Assembly: GCF_000380165.1 (NCBI RefSeq)
Contig: NZ_KB904656.1
Coordinates: 1 to 64,000, forward strand
Direction: 5' to 3'
Origin: Wenjunlia vitaminophila DSM 41686
GTDB taxonomy: Bacteria; Actinomycetota; Actinomycetes; Streptomycetales; Streptomycetaceae
Length of the DNA: 64,000 nucleotides
The position numbers and the translations under genes were made by a program. This document shows, piece by piece, positions 3,988-15,808 of the stretch (position 1 is the first letter of the stretch; the number at the start of each line of letters is the position of its first letter). The notes under the pieces are model-generated. The model did no database searches. It had not been told where the DNA came from and saw nothing but the letters and a program-made list of their open reading frames with translations.

Positions 3988-5367
3988 TTACTGCTGGGCC
4001 CGCTCCACCTGGGACTTGACCAGGTCGTTGGCCTTGTTGAGCTCCTTGGCCGGGTCCGCGTCCTCGCGGGTCAGCACGGCCTGCACGGCGTTGTCCAGGG
4101 CCTTGTAGACGTTCTGGCCCTCCACCGGGGGTTCGACGACCAGCTCGTAGTCGCCGAGCGACTCCCGGTACGCGGCGAAGTGCTCGAGGGGCACGTTTGC
4201 GTGCTTGTTGACCGCCTCCTCGACCGGATCCGAGATCTCCGGCTTGAAGAACGCGACCAGCGGCGAGCCGACGGTCAACCCGTCCTTGTTCTGCACGGCG
4301 GCCTGGTCGCCGGCGCGCTTCGGGTCGTACTTCGAGGCCAGGTAGTAGAAGTCGATGAACTTGACCGCCGCCGCACGCTGCTCGGGGCTCGCCTTCGGGC
4401 TGATCACGGCGACGTTCCCGCCGACCAGGGTCCGCTTGGCGGAGCCGTCGCTGGGCATGGGGCCGATGCCCACGTCGTTCTTGTCGCTCTTGTACTGGTC
4501 GATGACATGGTTGATCATGTTCGGCGCGGCCATCGTCATGCCGATCTTGCCGGCGGCGAAGTCCCTCTCGATGTCACCACCGTTGCGGAGCTGGTTGCGG
4601 CCCATGCTCTTGTCGGTCCAGCGCATCTCCTTCAGCAGGTCCAGGGCCTTGTGCGAGCCGCTGCCCTCCTTGTGGAAGGAGTTCACCCACCTGCCGCCGG
4701 ACTGCTCCTGCATGTCGTCGCCGAAGGAGTAGGTCATGGCGGTGAGCATCCAGCCGCCGGTGTTCTCCTTGGTCATCTGCGCGTAGCCGTCGACGCCGGT
4801 CTTGTCCTTGATGGTCTTGGCGGCCTCGCGCACCTCGTCCCAGGTGGTGGGTGGGGAGTCGGGGTCGAGTCCGGCCTTCTCGAAGAGCTTCCGGTTGTAG
4901 ACCAGGCCGAGCGCGTACTCCTCGGTCGGGACGCCGTAGGTCCTGCCGTCCTCGCCCCTGGCGACCGACAGCACCTCGTCGTTGAACTGGGCGCCGTGCT
5001 TGACCTGCTTGAAGTCCTCGGTGATGTCGGAGACCTGCTTGCGCTTGATCAGCGAGGACATCTCGGTCAGCGGTACCCGGACGACGGTCTCCAGGTTGCC
5101 GCCGGCCACCTTGGCCTGGAAGCTCTGCTGGTCGTACTCGTACTCGTTGGTCTTGACCCTGATGTCGGGGTTGGCCTTCTCGAAGGCGGCCACCTTGTCG
5201 TCGAACAGCTTGACCGCCGCGGGGTTCGCAGCCGCCGGGCGGCCGGAGACGGTGATGGTGACGGTGCCGTCGGCGCCCGCGTCACCGGAGTCGGAGCAGG
5301 CGGCGAGCGGAATGACGAGCGCGCCGAGGGCGATGCCGGCCAGGGTGCGACGCGGGGAGGGTCTCAT
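3988..5367 (-). CDS. Extracellular sugar-binding lipoprotein of CUT1 ABC importer
   Basis: A 459-residue lipoprotein. Its signal peptide ends in the lipobox LAAC with Cys24 as the lipidation site, followed by a Ser/Asp/Gly linker. The body has the cluster 1 solute-binding fold (YNRKLFEKAGLDPDSPPTTWDE; GKIGMTMAAPN). It would capture a sugar outside the cell for the two downstream permeases. The ATG has a GGAG site. It is the first gene of a minus-strand operon whose promoter region holds LacI-type palindromes, so induction by the transported sugar is likely. The ligand is unknown; the glycosidase at the end of the operon suggests a plant-polysaccharide fragment. Confidence 0.9.
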   Translation of the reverse strand: MRPSPRRTLAGIALGALVIPLAACSDSGDAGADGTVTITVSGRPAAANPAAVKLFDDKVAAFEKANPDIRVKTNEYEYDQQSFQAKVAGGNLETVVRVPLTEMSSLIKRKQVSDITEDFKQVKHGAQFNDEVLSVARGEDGRTYGVPTEEYALGLVYNRKLFEKAGLDPDSPPTTWDEVREAAKTIKDKTGVDGYAQMTKENTGGWMLTAMTYSFGDDMQEQSGGRWVNSFHKEGSGSHKALDLLKEMRWTDKSMGRNQLRNGGDIERDFAAGKIGMTMAAPNMINHVIDQYKSDKNDVGIGPMPSDGSAKRTLVGGNVAVISPKASPEQRAAAVKFIDFYYLASKYDPKRAGDQAAVQNKDGLTVGSPLVAFFKPEISDPVEEAVNKHANVPLEHFAAYRESLGDYELVVEPPVEGQNVYKALDNAVQAVLTREDADPAKELNKANDLVKSQVERAQQ

Positions 5368-5419
5368 CGGATGGCTCCATGTATCGAAGGGGCGGGGCGA
5401 GTGCCCCCAGACGCTTTTC

Positions 5420-5436
5420 TGGAAAACGCTTTCCCA
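5420..5436. promoter_or_regulatory. LacI-family operator between divergent sugar genes
   Basis: The near-palindrome TGGAAAACGCTTTCCCA has GGAAA/TTTCC arms around a central CG, the form typical of LacI/GalR-family operators. A half-site ACGCTTTTC (5411-5419) precedes ACGCTTTCC (5426-5434) by 15 nt. It lies 53 nt upstream of the binding-protein start and can control both divergent units. No LacI regulator gene lies in the window. Confidence 0.6.
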
Positions 5437-5551
5437 CTCCGGGCTACCTTGCACTGGCTGACCGGTGGCGTCAATGGTCGCGGAGCAGGGATTCGTCCTA
5501 AATCCCCGAACCAATCCCCCTTGCTGTCCCGCCGTCAGGGACATAACCTCC

Positions 5552-5565
5552 GGAAAACGGATTCC
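5552..5565. promoter_or_regulatory. Second, degenerate LacI-type operator
   Basis: GGAAAACGGATTCC matches the 5421-5434 site in its left half and outer right bases. It lies 20 nt before the GTG start of the plus-strand enzyme gene, where a bound repressor would block transcription or looping to the first site could occur. Confidence 0.4.
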
Positions 5566-5585
5566 GAGCTTGGAAGGCCCTCCCC

Positions 5586-7448
5586 GTGCCCTCTGCCCCG
5601 TCCCACGGCATGCGCGACCACGACCGCGCCCTGTTGCTCGCCGGCCTCGCCGAGGGCGACCGCCTCTGGGACCCAGACGAGAACCTGCTGCTCATCGAGG
5701 CCCCGTACAACCCGATCCACACCTCGATCAAGGGCGGCAAGGCCCATCCGACCCGCCACTCCCTGCACTACGCCCTGCTGCTGCTCGAGCGCGCCGCCGC
5801 CGCGGACGACGGCAGCGGCGACCTCGCCCGAGCGTGCGCCGTCCTGGAACGGATCGCCGCCCTCCAGGACCGGACCCCGGAGAACGACACCTACGGCATC
5901 TGGGGCTACTACGCCGAGGAGCCGCCGTGGGAGATGGTCCCGGCCGACTGGAACTGGGCCGACTTCCTGGGGACCGCCCTGCTGCTGGTGGACCTGCGCC
6001 ACGGACGGCGGCTACCGGAGCCGGTCCGCGCCGAGGTGCGGGAGTCCCTGCGCCACGCCGCCGCGTCCATCGTCCGCCGCGACGTCTCCATGACGTACAC
6101 CAACATCGCCGTCATGGGCACCTTCGTCACCCTGGTCGCCGGTGAGCACCTGGACGACGCCGAACTCGCCGCGTACGGACGGCAGCGGGTCCTGCGGCTC
6201 GCCCGGGCCATCGACGAGACCGGCAGCTTCGCCGAGTTCAACAGCCCTTCCTACTGGGGTGTCGTGCTGGAGTCCCTCACCCTCCTGCGCCAGTACGCGC
6301 GTGACCCCGACTCACTGCGGATCGTCGACCGGCTGCACGACCGGCACTGGGAGCACTTCCTGGCCCGCTGGCACCCGGCCACCCGTCAGCTCTCCGGCCC
6401 CATGGCCCGCTGCTACAGCAACGACCTGGGCGCACCGCCGCACCTGGTGAAGGCCGTGGGGGGCCTCCTGCCGGTCCAGGAGAAGACGCGGGCCGAACCC
6501 AACGACATCACCACCAGCATCACCTCCTGCGTCGACTACCGCGCCCCCCACTGGGCGCTGCCCCGGCTCGAGGCCCTCGCCGAACCCCGGGAACACCGCG
6601 AACTGTTCTCCACCCACGGCCCCGCCCCCGAGGTGGGCACCACGTGGCTCGACCACGTCACCACCCTGGGCAGCGTCAACCACATCGACACCTGGCTCCA
6701 GCGCCGCCCGCTGTTCGGCCACTGGCGACGCCCTGACGGCACCGCGGGCCACATCCACTGGCACCTGGTCAAGGACGACGGCGCGGAGGACTTCGACTTC
6801 GCCTCCGGGGTCGTGACCACCGTCCAGTCCGGCCCGCACGCGGCCTGGCTCGTCGGGTTCGCCAGCCCGGCGGGGGACCGCCACCACCACCTGGACATGA
6901 TCCGGCCCGGGGACCGCTTCCCGGTGCGTTCGCTGCGCGTGGTCGTGGACGTCGTCGGCGCCCACCTCCCCGACGGCGGCGCCGACGGGGTGCGGGACGG
7001 CCACACCGTCCGGCTCGACCTGGGCACCGCCCGGCTCACCCTCCAGTCCGCGGTGGGCGGCTCGTTCGCCGGCCGGCCCACGGCCCCACCCCGGGTGACC
7101 CCCCGCGACGACGGAGTCCGCATCGAGACCGTCCTGTTCGAAACCTACCAGCCCACCGACCTGAGCTGGAACGACATCGCCGACGCCTACGCCGGCGGCA
7201 CCCTCTCCCTGGAGCCGGCCCACCCCGACCTCCCCGACGGGCCCTGGGCCGCACCGTCCCTCACCCCGACCGGCGACGGCGCCGCGCGCCTGGAGTGGAC
7301 CACCCCGCAGGGGCGGGCCCTGACGGTGGAGGGGGCCACCGGCGTCGTTGCCCGGGAGGCCCATGCCGCCCGCCACGCCACCACCCTCGACGGCGCCCCG
7401 GCCCCGGTCGTCCGCCTGTCGCGGTCGCTGGTGGCCGAGGGGGACTGA
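5586..7448 (+). CDS. Putative carbohydrate-active enzyme, helical toroid plus beta-sandwich
   Basis: A 620-residue cytoplasmic protein (no signal peptide) that I cannot assign to a named family. Residues about 1-330 are helix-rich with conserved-looking aromatic and His patches (GIWGYYAEEPPWEMVPADWNWADF; SPSYWGVV), as in (alpha/alpha) toroid enzymes. Residues about 360-620 look beta-rich, ending in a sandwich-like segment. This architecture resembles heparinase II/III-like lyases and related glycosidases. The GTG start follows a GGAAGG site at good spacing; an ATG at 5610 is an alternative. Because it diverges from a sugar importer under LacI-type operators, it probably acts on the imported oligosaccharide. 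A strong hairpin follows the stop. Confidence 0.7.
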   Translation: MPSAPSHGMRDHDRALLLAGLAEGDRLWDPDENLLLIEAPYNPIHTSIKGGKAHPTRHSLHYALLLLERAAAADDGSGDLARACAVLERIAALQDRTPENDTYGIWGYYAEEPPWEMVPADWNWADFLGTALLLVDLRHGRRLPEPVRAEVRESLRHAAASIVRRDVSMTYTNIAVMGTFVTLVAGEHLDDAELAAYGRQRVLRLARAIDETGSFAEFNSPSYWGVVLESLTLLRQYARDPDSLRIVDRLHDRHWEHFLARWHPATRQLSGPMARCYSNDLGAPPHLVKAVGGLLPVQEKTRAEPNDITTSITSCVDYRAPHWALPRLEALAEPREHRELFSTHGPAPEVGTTWLDHVTTLGSVNHIDTWLQRRPLFGHWRRPDGTAGHIHWHLVKDDGAEDFDFASGVVTTVQSGPHAAWLVGFASPAGDRHHHLDMIRPGDRFPVRSLRVVVDVVGAHLPDGGADGVRDGHTVRLDLGTARLTLQSAVGGSFAGRPTAPPRVTPRDDGVRIETVLFETYQPTDLSWNDIADAYAGGTLSLEPAHPDLPDGPWAAPSLTPTGDGAARLEWTTPQGRALTVEGATGVVAREAHAARHATTLDGAPAPVVRLSRSLVAEGD

Positions 7449-7474
7449 GCCGGACCGCCGCGGTCCACCCGCGG

Positions 7475-7515
7475 CCACCGGGTGCGTGCCGCACGGGCCG
7501 GCGCGCACCCGGTGG
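7475..7515. terminator. Hairpin terminator after the 5586 gene
   Basis: A perfect 12-bp stem (CCACCGGGTGCG / CGCACCCGGTGG) with a 17-nt loop starts 26 nt after the stop codon. There is no U-tract, as is usual in streptomycetes. Confidence 0.6.
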
Positions 7516-7608
7516 GGTACCGCGGCTCCCTGTCCGACGGTCTCGTGCGTGCGCTCCGCTTCGGTGATGCTCCGTGCCCCGGCCGGATCGCTGTGGGACC
7601 GCCCCTGT

Positions 7609-10946: not shown

Positions 10947-12764
10947 ATGGCGAACACCTTCCAGGTCGACCTGCGGGGACTGGTCGACCTCCTCTCGCAC
11001 CACCTCTACTCCAGCCCCAAGGTCTACCTGCGCGAGCTGCTCCAGAACGGGGTGGACGCCGTCACCGCCCGTCGCGCGGTCGAACCGGACGCGCCGGCCT
11101 CCGTGCGGCTGGTCCCCGAGGGGGGCACGCTCCGGGTCGAGGACAGCGGCATCGGGCTGACCGAGGCCGAGGTGCACAGTCTGCTGGCCACCATCGGGCG
11201 CAGCTCCAAACGGGACGGCCTGGAGGCGGCGCGCGCCGAGTTCCTCGGGCAGTTCGGCATCGGGCTGCTCGCCTGCTTCGTCGTCGCCGAGGAGATCCGC
11301 GTCGTCAGCAGGTCCGCCCGGGACGCCGAGGCGCCGCCGGTGGAGTGGCGGGCCCGCGACGACGGTTCGTACACCGTGCGCACGCTCCCCGAGGACGCCC
11401 GCCCCGAACCGGGCACCACCGTCCACCTCACCGCGCGGCCCGGCGCCGCGGAGTGGCTCGCCACCGACCGCGTCACCGAACTCGCCCGGCACTACGGCTC
11501 GCTGCTGCCGTACGACGTCCGCGTCGGGGACACCCCGGTGTCCGAGCGGCCAGCCGTGTGGGAGCGCCACCACCCGGGGCCGGCCGCGCGCCGTGCGGCC
11601 CTGGCCAGGCACTGCCGCGAGACGTTCGGTTTCACCCCGCTGGACGCGATCGAACTCGACGTTCCCCTGGCGGGGCTCCGCGGCGTGGCGTACGTGCTGC
11701 CCTCGGCGGTCAGCCCGGCACAGCGCGGCGCCCACCGGGTCCACCTCAAGGGGATGCTGCTCACCGAACGCGCCGACGACCTGCTGCCCGAGTGGGCGTT
11801 CTTCGTGCGCTGCGTGCTGGACACCGACAGCCTGCGCCCCACCGCCTCCCGGGAGAACCTCTACGCCGACGACACCCTCGCCGCCGTCCGCGACGTGCTG
11901 GGGACCCGCATCCGCGACTGGCTCAGCGAGCTGGCGGCCGGCGACCAGGAACGGCTGGCCCACTTCCTGTCCGTGCACCACCTGGGCGTGAAGTCGCTGG
12001 CGCGGCACGATCCGGAGATGTTCGCGGTCATGCTGCCGTGGCTGCCCTTCGAGACCACCGAGGGGCACCTGTCCCTCGACGAGTACGCGCGCCGCCACCC
12101 GGTGATCCACTACACCCGCACCACCGAGGAGTTCCGGCAGGTCGCCGCCATCGCCGCGGCCCAGGGCGTCGGCGTGGTCAACGGCGGGTACACCTACGAC
12201 ACCGAGCTGGTGGAACTGCTGCCGCGGGCCCGCCCGGGCACGGCCGTCGCCGAGCTGGACACCGACACCGTCACCGCCCACCTGGACCCGGTGGACGCCG
12301 AGGAGGAGCTGGCCCTCACCGCGTTCCTCGCCGTGGCCCGCGCCACCCTCGAACCCCTCGGCTGCGACGTGGTGCTGCGGGCCTTCCAGCCGCTGACCGT
12401 TCCCGCCCTGCACCTGGACGACCGGCAGGCCAGGCACGAGCGGGCCCGGGCGGAGGAGGCCGAGGCGGCGGACGGCCTGTGGGCGGGCATCCTCGGCTCG
12501 TTGCGGGACAGCCGGCCCCGCGCACGCCTGGTGCTGAACCACCGCAGTCCGCTGGTGCACCGCATGGCACGGGCCGAGAGCGAGGAACTCCTCGCCGCGG
12601 CCGTGGAGGCGCTCTACGGCCAGGCCCTGTTGATGTCCCAGCGGCCGCTGCGGCCCGCGGACTCCGCCCTGCTCAACCGCGCCTTCCTCGCGCTGCTCGA
12701 CTGGGCGGTACGCCCCCAGGCGCCCTCCGACCCGACCGAACGACCCGCAGGGGAGCCCCATTGA
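10947..12764 (+). CDS. HSP90-family (HtpG-like) ATPase
   Basis: A 605-residue protein of the GHKL ATPase superfamily. The N-terminal domain shows all HSP90 nucleotide motifs: ELLQNGVDAVTAR with the catalytic Glu (residues about 30-42), the VEDSGIGL loop, the IGRSSK lid segment and GQFGIGLLACFVV. The middle domain carries PTASRENLYADDTL, equivalent to the arginine segment that contacts ATP. It is somewhat shorter and more divergent than the general chaperone HtpG (about 630 residues), so a specialised role is likely. Its last codons overlap the TTG start of the TPR protein by three nucleotides, making the two a translationally coupled pair. TPR domains are classic HSP90 partners in eukaryotes, so a physical complex is a plausible inference. 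Confidence 0.9.
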   Translation: MANTFQVDLRGLVDLLSHHLYSSPKVYLRELLQNGVDAVTARRAVEPDAPASVRLVPEGGTLRVEDSGIGLTEAEVHSLLATIGRSSKRDGLEAARAEFLGQFGIGLLACFVVAEEIRVVSRSARDAEAPPVEWRARDDGSYTVRTLPEDARPEPGTTVHLTARPGAAEWLATDRVTELARHYGSLLPYDVRVGDTPVSERPAVWERHHPGPAARRAALARHCRETFGFTPLDAIELDVPLAGLRGVAYVLPSAVSPAQRGAHRVHLKGMLLTERADDLLPEWAFFVRCVLDTDSLRPTASRENLYADDTLAAVRDVLGTRIRDWLSELAAGDQERLAHFLSVHHLGVKSLARHDPEMFAVMLPWLPFETTEGHLSLDEYARRHPVIHYTRTTEEFRQVAAIAAAQGVGVVNGGYTYDTELVELLPRARPGTAVAELDTDTVTAHLDPVDAEEELALTAFLAVARATLEPLGCDVVLRAFQPLTVPALHLDDRQARHERARAEEAEAADGLWAGILGSLRDSRPRARLVLNHRSPLVHRMARAESEELLAAAVEALYGQALLMSQRPLRPADSALLNRAFLALLDWAVRPQAPSDPTERPAGEPH

Positions 12765-15700
12765 CCAGCCGTTCGATCGACGACATCCGCTTCGACCTGT
12801 ACCGGAACGGCGACGAGCCCATCGGCTCCCCCCGCAACGCCCGGGCCGAGCAGCTCGTCGCCGAGGCGGAGGGCACCGGGGACCAGCCGCTGCTGGTGGA
12901 GGCGCTGATCGGGCTGACCATCGCCTACAGCCACAGCGCCGAGTGCGACAAGATGTTCGTGCCCTTCTCACGGCTGCTCCGGATGTGGGACGAGAACCCC
13001 GCGGACTTCGACGAGGACGACGCCCACCAACTGTTCTGGATGTTCAAGTGGGTCAGCGGTGACGCGATGGCGCAACCACAGATCCCACTCGCCTCCATCG
13101 AGGAGTGGCTGGTGGAGATGCGCCGCCGCTACCGCATCGCGGGCCACTCCGAACGGGCGGTGCACGCCCGGGACTTCGAGGTGGCCCGGTACCTGGGCGA
13201 CGTGGAACGGGCCGAGCGCGCCCTGAGCGCCCTGCTCGCCGCCGACCGCGACGAGATGGCCGACTGCCACGCCTGCGAGCTGCACGAACAGGGCCAGTGG
13301 CAGGTGGAACGGGGCGACGACGCCGCCGCGTTGGAGGTGTGGCGGCCGGTCCTCGAGGGCCGCGAGAGCTGCCTGCACGAGCCGCACGCGACGCTCGCCC
13401 GGTCGCTGCTGCCGCTGGTGCGGCTCGGCCGCCTGGACGCCGCGCGCTCCCACCACCTGCGGGGCTACCGGATGGCGCGGTCGGTGGAGGCGTTGGGCAG
13501 CTCCGTCGCCGCCCATGTGGAGTTCTGCGCGCTGACCGGCAACGAACCGCGCGGCTTGGAGATCCTGGCCGAGCAGACGCCGCGCTGGGAGCTTCGCGGG
13601 GACGCCCTGCCGTACATGGAGTGGATGGCCTGCGCCGCGCTGCTGTCCCGCCGGGTGGTGGACCTCGGCCACGGCGACCGGCCCGTTCCCGGCCCTCCCG
13701 GCAGGCAGTGGACGGCCGCCGCCCTGCTCGAGCACGCCACCGACGAGGCCCTGGCGATGGCGGTGCGCTTCGACGAGCGCAACGGCAGCACCCGCGTCTC
13801 CGACCTGCTCCGGCTCCAGATGGGTGCCGAGCCGCTGCTGGACTCGCTCCCCCTGGGCCTGCGCTCCGCGCCGCTCGGTCAGGCAGCGTCAGCGGTCGGT
13901 GCCGCGCGGGGCACGGGGGCGCGGGTCCCGGCCGTGCCAGGGACGGGGACGGAGGCGGGGGCGCGGCAGTCGGCTCCGGCGCCGCGGTCCGCGTCGGCCG
14001 GAGCTCCCCGGGCGTCGGACGACCCCCGGGAACTGCTGGTCCGGGCCAGGCAGCTCAGCGACACGCTCCACCCCTCCGCCGGCGCCGCCTGGCAGCGCGC
14101 CGCGCGGGCCGTCGAGGGTGGGGGCGGCGCCCTCGACGACGGTGACCGGGCCGACCTGCTGGACGCCACGGCCCTGGGCCTGCGCGGCCCCGGTCAGCGG
14201 GCCGCCGACCTGCTCGCCGAGGCGGCCGAAGCCCACGAGCGCGCCGGGCAGCCGGGGAAGGCGTTGGTCTCCCGGGGGCGCGTCACCCTGGCCGCCCTCC
14301 GTTCCGGTCGGGCCGAAAGCGCCCTGGAGGAGATCGAGGAGCTGTGTGCCCGGGCCGAGGCGCTGCACGCGGACGGCCGTGCCAGCACCCGCCAGGTGGC
14401 CACGGTGCTGGTGTTCCGCTGTCGGGTGCGGGCCGCGCTGCTCGGTGCCGCCGCCGACCCCCACGCCGAGGCCGCGCGGCTCAAGGCGGAGCTCGATGAC
14501 CTGCTCGCCTTCGCCCGGCCCCACCACGACGAGCCCGGCGTCCTCAGCCGGGTCGCCGACGCCACCGAACTGCTCGGGCTGCTCGCCGCGATGGACGACC
14601 CGGCCGCCGCCGTCCCCCTGTTCACCGCGGCGGTCTCCCACCACCACGCGTCGGGGCGGCCGTGGTTGGCGGTGAGCGCCGAGATCCAACTCGCCCAGTC
14701 GCTGTTGGCGCAGGGGGAGAAGGACAGGGCCACGGCGGTCGTCCGGGCCGTACTGGACGACCCCGACCGGGTCGCCCTCCTGGACCCGGTCAGTCGGGCC
14801 CGACTGTGCTTCGCCCTGGCCCAGGCCGTGTCCGGCCAGGAGGGGCACGAGGCCGAGGAGGCGGCGCTGCTGGTGGACACCGCGCACTACGCCGACCTCT
14901 CCGGCGAGTTGCCAGCGCTCGCGCTGCGGGCCCGGCACCACCTCGGGGGCCTGTACTGCGACCGGGGGCGCCTGGAGGAAGCGGCGTCCGTCCTGGAGTC
15001 CGTGCTGCCGGACCTGGCGCAGACGCTCGGGGAGAGCGACATGGTGCAGGCGAGGGTGTGGCTGGCGCACTGTTACACCGGTACCCAGGAGCACCGCCTC
15101 GCCGCCGAGCAGTACGCGCTGGCCGCCACGACCGCCCAGCACTGGGACGACCAGCGGCACCACGCGGTCCTCACCCACCAGGCCGGACAGGCACTCAGCG
15201 CGGCCGGCATGAACGAGGAGGCCGTGCGGGCCTACGAGCAAGCCGTGGCGCTGTGGCGCGGGATCGGTGACGTCGGCGCCACGGTGCGCGCGCTGCGCGC
15301 CCAGGCGTGGGAGGCCCTCGGGGCGCGCGGGCAGTCCACCGCCGAGGCCCTGATGCGCGAGGCCCTGGCGGAAGCCGAGAAGGGCCTGCGGGACACCGAA
15401 CTGCCGGAGGAACGCGCCGCGCTGGGCATCGACGTGGGCGAGACCCACCAGCAGTTGGCCCAGTTGCACCTGGAGGGCACCGACGGCCCCCCGGACCGGC
15501 AGCACGACACCGACGAGCAGTACGCCATCAACGTCGCCGCGTTCGAGGCGGCGCTCGTCTGCGCGGGCCGGGCCGTGGGGGCCTTCCGCGCCTGCGGCCA
15601 GCACGGGCAGCAGGCCATGCTGTCGGCGGAACTCCAGGCAGCCCGGCTTGAGCTGGCGCTGGAACGTCCCCGGGACGCCGCGCTGCGCACCCGCCGCCTC

Positions 15701-15808
15701 CGCGCCGAGCTGGAACGGCTCCCCGATCCTGACGGGACGCTGGCCGACCTCGCCGACGAGTGCGACGCCGTCCTGATGATGGCGGAACGGAACCTCCCGG
15801 GGCGGTAG
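12761..15808 (+). CDS. Large TPR-repeat protein coupled to HSP90-family gene
   Basis: The TTG at 12761 overlaps the HSP90 stop (TTGA) and has a GGGGAG site 6 nt upstream; it gives 1015 residues. The protein is almost entirely helical with many TPR-like A/G/Y-A-P spacings, in two blocks. Residues 1-365 (SIDDIRFDLYRNGDEPIGSPRNARAEQLV...) and about 420-1015 are separated by a low-complexity Ala/Gly/Pro linker (about 370-425) rich in GTG and SAPAPRSAS. The frame is also open far upstream, but the coupling and site favour this start. There is no signal peptide and no enzymatic domain. It is probably the scaffold or partner of the HSP90 ATPase; the role of the pair is unknown. Confidence 0.85.
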   Translation: MTSRSIDDIRFDLYRNGDEPIGSPRNARAEQLVAEAEGTGDQPLLVEALIGLTIAYSHSAECDKMFVPFSRLLRMWDENPADFDEDDAHQLFWMFKWVSGDAMAQPQIPLASIEEWLVEMRRRYRIAGHSERAVHARDFEVARYLGDVERAERALSALLAADRDEMADCHACELHEQGQWQVERGDDAAALEVWRPVLEGRESCLHEPHATLARSLLPLVRLGRLDAARSHHLRGYRMARSVEALGSSVAAHVEFCALTGNEPRGLEILAEQTPRWELRGDALPYMEWMACAALLSRRVVDLGHGDRPVPGPPGRQWTAAALLEHATDEALAMAVRFDERNGSTRVSDLLRLQMGAEPLLDSLPLGLRSAPLGQAASAVGAARGTGARVPAVPGTGTEAGARQSAPAPRSASAGAPRASDDPRELLVRARQLSDTLHPSAGAAWQRAARAVEGGGGALDDGDRADLLDATALGLRGPGQRAADLLAEAAEAHERAGQPGKALVSRGRVTLAALRSGRAESALEEIEELCARAEALHADGRASTRQVATVLVFRCRVRAALLGAAADPHAEAARLKAELDDLLAFARPHHDEPGVLSRVADATELLGLLAAMDDPAAAVPLFTAAVSHHHASGRPWLAVSAEIQLAQSLLAQGEKDRATAVVRAVLDDPDRVALLDPVSRARLCFALAQAVSGQEGHEAEEAALLVDTAHYADLSGELPALALRARHHLGGLYCDRGRLEEAASVLESVLPDLAQTLGESDMVQARVWLAHCYTGTQEHRLAAEQYALAATTAQHWDDQRHHAVLTHQAGQALSAAGMNEEAVRAYEQAVALWRGIGDVGATVRALRAQAWEALGARGQSTAEALMREALAEAEKGLRDTELPEERAALGIDVGETHQQLAQLHLEGTDGPPDRQHDTDEQYAINVAAFEAALVCAGRAVGAFRACGQHGQQAMLSAELQAARLELALERPRDAALRTRRLRAELERLPDPDGTLADLADECDAVLMMAERNLPGR

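Follow-up and report, generated by a model that had tools for sequence, protein, structure and literature searches.

A bacterial HSP90-family ATPase and a TPR-type protein encoded as a tightly linked gene pair

The window, a 64,000-nucleotide stretch of the Wenjunlia vitaminophila DSM 41686 genome (6.43 Mb, 99.2% complete), carries two adjoining forward-strand genes, one for an HSP90-family ATPase (10947..12764) and one for a TPR-type protein (12761..15808), hereafter the partner. The HSP90 reading frame runs from an ATG at 10947 to a TGA stop at 12764 and encodes 605 amino acids. We assigned it from the sequence, its model scores, the residues of its ATP site, and a phylogenetic tree. It scored 854.6 bits against the NCBIfam model NF010683 (HSP90 family protein, PRK14083), well above the curated cut-off of 455, and is therefore a full member of this family, whose clade we call class C here. 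It scored 188.1 bits against the HtpG model NF003555, below the curated cut-off of 371, and 33.1 bits against PF00183, above the cut-off of 24.4. NF010683 is named as a family only, and its model description, as shown, mentions no partner. The original prediction that the ATP motifs are kept was borne out, as seven key residues, namely, E30, N34, D66, G101, G104, and G106 of the ATP site and R302 of the middle domain, were invariant in all 46 aligned sequences. We take E30, N34, D66, and R302 to be the counterparts of E33, N37, D79, and R380 in yeast Hsp82.

The two genes overlap by exactly the four bases that had been predicted, TTGA (12761..12764), which hold both the start of the partner gene and the stop of the HSP90 gene. 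Within the HSP90 gene, 5 bases ahead of the partner TTG, lies AGGGGAG (12749..12755, forward strand), which likely serves the partner gene as its ribosome-binding site. The exact 4-base overlap was not general, being found in 28 of 108 HSP90-partner rows, which include the window twice (L001 and L014), and the spacing was within −60 to +150 bases in 106 of them. No natural fusion of the two proteins was present among 103 pairs.

The partner frame, from a TTG at 12761 to a TAG stop at 15808, encodes 1,015 amino acids, in agreement with the predicted size of more than 1,000 residues. Its TPR label comes mainly from the predicted fold, because all Pfam TPR matches stayed below the gathering score (the best, TPR_12, at 23.7 versus 30.1) and a PDB sequence search with the partner returned no matching chain. 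The homologue from S. globosus (P0003) had a Pfam TPR match above threshold (42.1), and a PF10602 (RPN7) match on P0011 was sub-threshold and was rejected. AlphaFold2, used for monomer predictions only, modeled the full partner (pLDDT 89.9) as an all-helical TPR-type solenoid of two lobes with a disordered linker. The N-lobe (residues 1 to 360, 12761..13840; model pLDDT 94.6) was found by homologue searches in all phyla sampled. It is followed by a hinge (residues 361 to 420, 13841..14020), in which residues 376 to 416 had a pLDDT under 50, which is the central low-complexity hinge noted earlier, and by a C-lobe (residues 421 to 1010, 14021..15790), a predicted TPR solenoid that appears from the model and from partner lengths to be an actinobacterial extension. 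The N-lobe contains a conserved D-C-x-A-C-E motif (13262..13279) with C169 and C172, as well as a third cysteine, C204 (13370-13372), each of the three being present in 60 of 65 nonredundant N-lobe homologues, and it closes with an F-D-x-R-N motif. We infer that this cysteine cluster may take part in metal binding or redox sensing.

An N-lobe of about 350 residues is the constant part of the partner family across phyla. Outside Actinomycetota, the partners consist of the N-lobe alone (about 330 to 367 amino acids), whereas full actinobacterial partners mostly have about 880 to 1,030 residues, so that the earlier description of a giant protein holds in actinobacteria but not elsewhere. The Paenibacillus pair is small, with an HSP90 of about 600 amino acids and a partner of 353. 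The N-lobe partner is duplicated in tandem in Listeria and occurs in up to four copies in Myroides (L098). Two to four copies behind one HSP90 were observed at L098 (8803-13182), L105, L102, L087, and L035.

To see how constant the pairing is, we searched the same 150 Streptomycetaceae genomes with NF010683 and with an N-lobe model built from alignment A3 (46 rows). HSP90s over the NF010683 cut-off were found at 105 places in 94 genomes, the window genome included, and at all 105 the N-lobe lay directly downstream on the same strand, with 33 to 177 bases between the two model ends. Eleven genomes had two NF010683 HSP90 copies, and both copies were partnered in each of them. Such conservation at 105 of 105 places excludes a chance pairing. 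Seen from the partner, 106 of 112 N-lobe places in these genomes were paired, one of these 106 (in G137) with a fragmentary HSP90 scoring below the cut-off. The six unpaired places were a second copy in G149, one each in G140, G043, and G145, and two hits of 20 to 23 bits; four of the six were compared with HtpG positions by script and two by eye.

Some of these loci are worth describing individually. In G140 (L146), the HSP90 matches its model at both ends only, as if the middle had been lost, and the partner N-lobe is intact. Partner-type genes with no adjoining NF010683 HSP90 lie at G043:C1:474919-475965, G145:C356:7280-8326, and G149:C1:5846580-5847581. A plasmid of Actinomyces oris (L158) carries another partner-type gene (4501-7536) with no annotated HSP90 adjoining and with a YbjN-domain gene two genes upstream.

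The pairing extended far beyond this family. In a sample of 296 Actinomycetota genomes, where pairing was judged by eye, the HSP90s that passed the cut-off, at 12 places in 10 genomes, were all paired, and 2 unpaired N-lobe places were seen among 14. A scan of GTDB genomes was started from the Paenibacillus HSP90, and its best 80 loci came from about eight phyla by our own assignment from record titles: Bacillota, Planctomycetota, Acidobacteriota, Myxococcota, Bacteroidota, Pseudomonadota, Desulfobacterota, and Actinomycetota. Among these best 80, the N-lobe was near the HSP90 in 75 and downstream on the same strand in 73; it was upstream in L103, convergent in L072, and not nearby in five (L062, L080, L094, L095, and L070, the last ended by a contig edge). 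In a plasmid collection, the HSP90 query was covered to ≥80% by 6 records, each of which also carried the N-lobe. The HSP90-partner linkage is thus real and close to fixed, and the proposal of a dedicated bacterial HSP90-TPR pair conserved across actinobacteria is strongly supported (105/105 Streptomycetaceae and 12/12 Actinomycetota places), also well outside that phylum (73/80 loci).

HtpG, through which bacterial HSP90 has mostly been studied, served as a control. It has a full-length HSP90 alignment and the ATP site in common with the window HSP90. Canonical HtpG over its cut-off was found at 74 places in 73 of the 150 Streptomycetaceae genomes, and at none of the 74 was a TPR-type partner of either family described in this work located next to it. 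For E. coli HtpG, no co-chaperones had been identified according to one paper (PMC4428384), and another states that the DnaK-HtpG interaction involves CbpA (PMC8957991).

The window genome itself lacks HtpG, the window gene being its sole match to both PF00183 and NF003555, as would fit a plain housekeeping HSP90 that replaces HtpG, with the TPR gene as a passenger. The original prediction had held that an absence of HtpG would make this simply the housekeeping HSP90; the absence was confirmed, but the consequence did not follow. Among the 150 genomes, 49 had both the pair and HtpG, 45 had the pair only, 24 had HtpG only, and 32 had neither, so that the two occur independently of each other (Fisher p 0.31). 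Because 49 of the 94 pair genomes have HtpG and 45 lack it, the absence of HtpG does not refute a dedicated pair, and the independent occurrence in relatives indicates that the NF010683 HSP90 is not simply the housekeeping HSP90. The supposed passenger was retained at every one of the 105 places, and the clade is separate from HtpG in the tree. We therefore consider the housekeeping explanation improbable.

That tree, a maximum-likelihood analysis of 62 HSP90 rows for which the program warned of long branches, also separated a second clade, which we call class D. Class C (49 rows; support 100/99), class D (5 rows; 100/100), and HtpG (7 rows; 100/100) each formed one side of a branch, and the TPR-partnered HSP90s that were sampled (class C, class D, and one from Pseudanabaena) were split from the solo HtpG by a fully supported branch. 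Class D HSP90s scored 257 to 285 bits against NF010683, and were present in 38 of the 150 Streptomycetaceae genomes. At 37 of 38 places a different TPR-type protein, about 770 to 810 amino acids long, was encoded behind them, the exception being G033, which has a shorter match in a 488-residue open frame. The class C and class D partner families showed no detectable homology, with an HHalign alignment at a CxxC that had an E value of 0.02 and a probability of 2.4. The class D pair is also carried by Xanthomonas, Pseudomonas, and Salmonella, in a clade that includes Streptomyces; examples are at L139 (4911-9322), L155 (7881-12122), L156 (5962-10109), and L036 (8947-13170).

The pair in L155 is presumably PA1068-PA1069 of P. 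aeruginosa, as judged from synteny. It differs from the window pair in both its HSP90 clade and its partner family. In the accessible parts of the literature, PA1069 was reported to appear operonic with an Hsp90 gene in P. aeruginosa (PMC4053335) and was tabulated without a function elsewhere (PMC4957987, PMC7044273, PMC3946381, and PMC13411936); in PMC9995270, "PA1068" denotes a strain, not the gene. The Pseudanabaena HSP90 (L037, 8932-13795) carries a TIR-like stretch at its C terminus (a PF10137 match under the cut-off). A TPR gene follows it at a distance of two genes, another gene with a TIR domain lies upstream, and this HSP90/TPR/TIR locus is possibly a defence variant.

No third gene was conserved with the pair across phyla. 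Only the HSP90 and its partner recurred as real genes among the cross-phylum neighbours, and we judged a third large cluster to be made up of antisense frames. Of the 14 other window proteins examined, none was found near the pair in 22 Streptomyces loci, and a comparison of 20 regions showed neighbours common only to near relatives, except for a gene encoding a 355-amino-acid protein. The pair is thus without a fixed genomic address. The 355-amino-acid protein has no Pfam match and is encoded upstream of the HSP90 in a subset of Streptomyces, e.g., in L120 (9972-11036, reverse strand), and is absent from the window. Its homologues were seen in L019, L022, L026, L027, L029-L031, L033, L112, L123-L125, L127, L137, and L146, and it is possibly a third component. 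A scan for the heat-shock operators CIRCE and HAIR, with up to 3 mismatches allowed for either, gave no hit upstream in any of 115 cases.

Membership in one operon does not by itself prove contact, and the two proteins might be cotranscribed members of one stress pathway that never meet. We regard this as most improbable, given that the pair is conserved in about eight phyla while its neighbours change and that a second HSP90 clade has a TPR partner of its own.

The patchy distribution (94 of 150 genomes), the lack of a fixed address, the two-gene cassette form, and the copies in plasmid records would suit an accessory anti-phage defence module that moves horizontally. PADLOC revealed nothing specific for it. 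The HSP90 matched a single PADLOC model, TmtA, with 25.2 bits over positions 25 to 128 of 1,302, i.e., the ATPase-domain stretch with no whole-protein match, and an identity with Tiamat was rejected. The partner matched no PADLOC model, and the window neighbours matched kinase, methyltransferase, and HTH domains only. A toxic effector domain is also absent from the pair. The defence role raised in the original prediction is accordingly unsupported, and we hold this explanation to be very unlikely. A phage origin was likewise rejected: among the near-full-length "phage" matches, the only one whose neighbourhood could be read, MT837560 (L157), is an unverified "Bacteriophage sp." clone that looks like bacterial DNA, in which the HSP90 and its partner adjoin a sigma-factor-like gene.

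The HSP90 and partner distances were correlated (r 0.84; permuted maximum, 0.17), and a comparison of the two trees gave 28 strong splits in common, with 3 of 42 strong HSP90 splits in conflict with a strong partner split, although shared descent alone can be sufficient for such agreement. That the linkage is near-fixed, that no other gene accompanies the pair, that the trees match, and that the ATP site is intact all speak for an HSP90 machine made of two proteins. The two likely form a complex, and the TPR protein is, in our view, most likely a co-chaperone or adaptor dedicated to this bacterial HSP90. In such a machine, the N-lobe would dock on the HSP90 dimer, and the docked partner would bring a client or steer the ATPase cycle. 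The actinobacterial C-lobe may add a second client-binding surface, and the tight spacing or overlap of the genes would keep the amounts of the two proteins in step. Since all 103 HSP90s lacked an MEEVD- or EEVD-like C-terminal tail, the partner would have to dock in another manner than eukaryotic TPR co-chaperones do.

A single chaperone with a single fixed and tightly coupled partner would suit a dedicated client equally well, i.e., a signaling or regulatory solenoid that is folded or kept active by the HSP90, in the way that eukaryotic HSP90 holds steroid receptors in an active state. The fold of the N-lobe was nearest to MalT domain III (Z 22.5; rmsd 4.9; 320 aligned residues), with the Rap/NprR peptide receptors also among the bacterial folds (Z of about 14 to 19), and some partners occur without an HSP90, as a client might. 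However, no DNA-binding or enzymatic Pfam domain was found in the partner, and the predicted matches (APC5, MalT, and Rap) are common TPR folds that imply nothing about function, while absence from the match list excludes no family. We consider the client role rather unlikely. A broader and tentative idea is that bacteria invented the coupling of HSP90 to TPR proteins and put it to use two or more times. The TPR-type partner of each lineage might then be an adaptor resembling a receptor, with the HSP90 ATPase cycle gating its ligand-binding state, as a bacterial counterpart of HSP90-gated receptors.

HSP90 with TPR helpers is best known from eukaryotes, where Hop, FKBP51/52, and Cpr6 use an MEEVD docking tail. 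The same logic is proposed for the window pair, but its partner is a long, gene-linked solenoid with a cysteine cluster, and the HSP90s lack such a tail. What is new here is an HSP90 with a TPR partner that is nevertheless bacterial, gene-linked, and devoid of the known docking tail. Chen et al. (2006; PMC1525184) sorted bacterial HTPG into groups A, B, and C, with Firmicutes and Actinobacteria in group C and two HTPG copies of different groups in S. coelicolor; the NF010683 clade is probably this group C. Their main text mentions no TPR, tetratricopeptide, or operon, the literature on lmo0941/lmo0942 gives no function, and no description of the NF010683 HSP90-TPR pair was found in the open-license literature searched. 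Since Chen et al. are silent on a TPR neighbour and no such paper was found, we take the pair as a new variation on the HSP90-TPR theme.

As the pair recurs in relatives from several phyla, some bacteria probably own a dedicated HSP90 helper. For the partner family, which is widespread and uncharacterized and is not covered by a dedicated model in the Pfam copy searched, the pair suggests a likely function. A near-obligate pair in about eight phyla would offer a minimal two-gene system for the steering of HSP90 by a TPR protein without MEEVD, and it would bear on whether HSP90-TPR teamwork had more than one origin.
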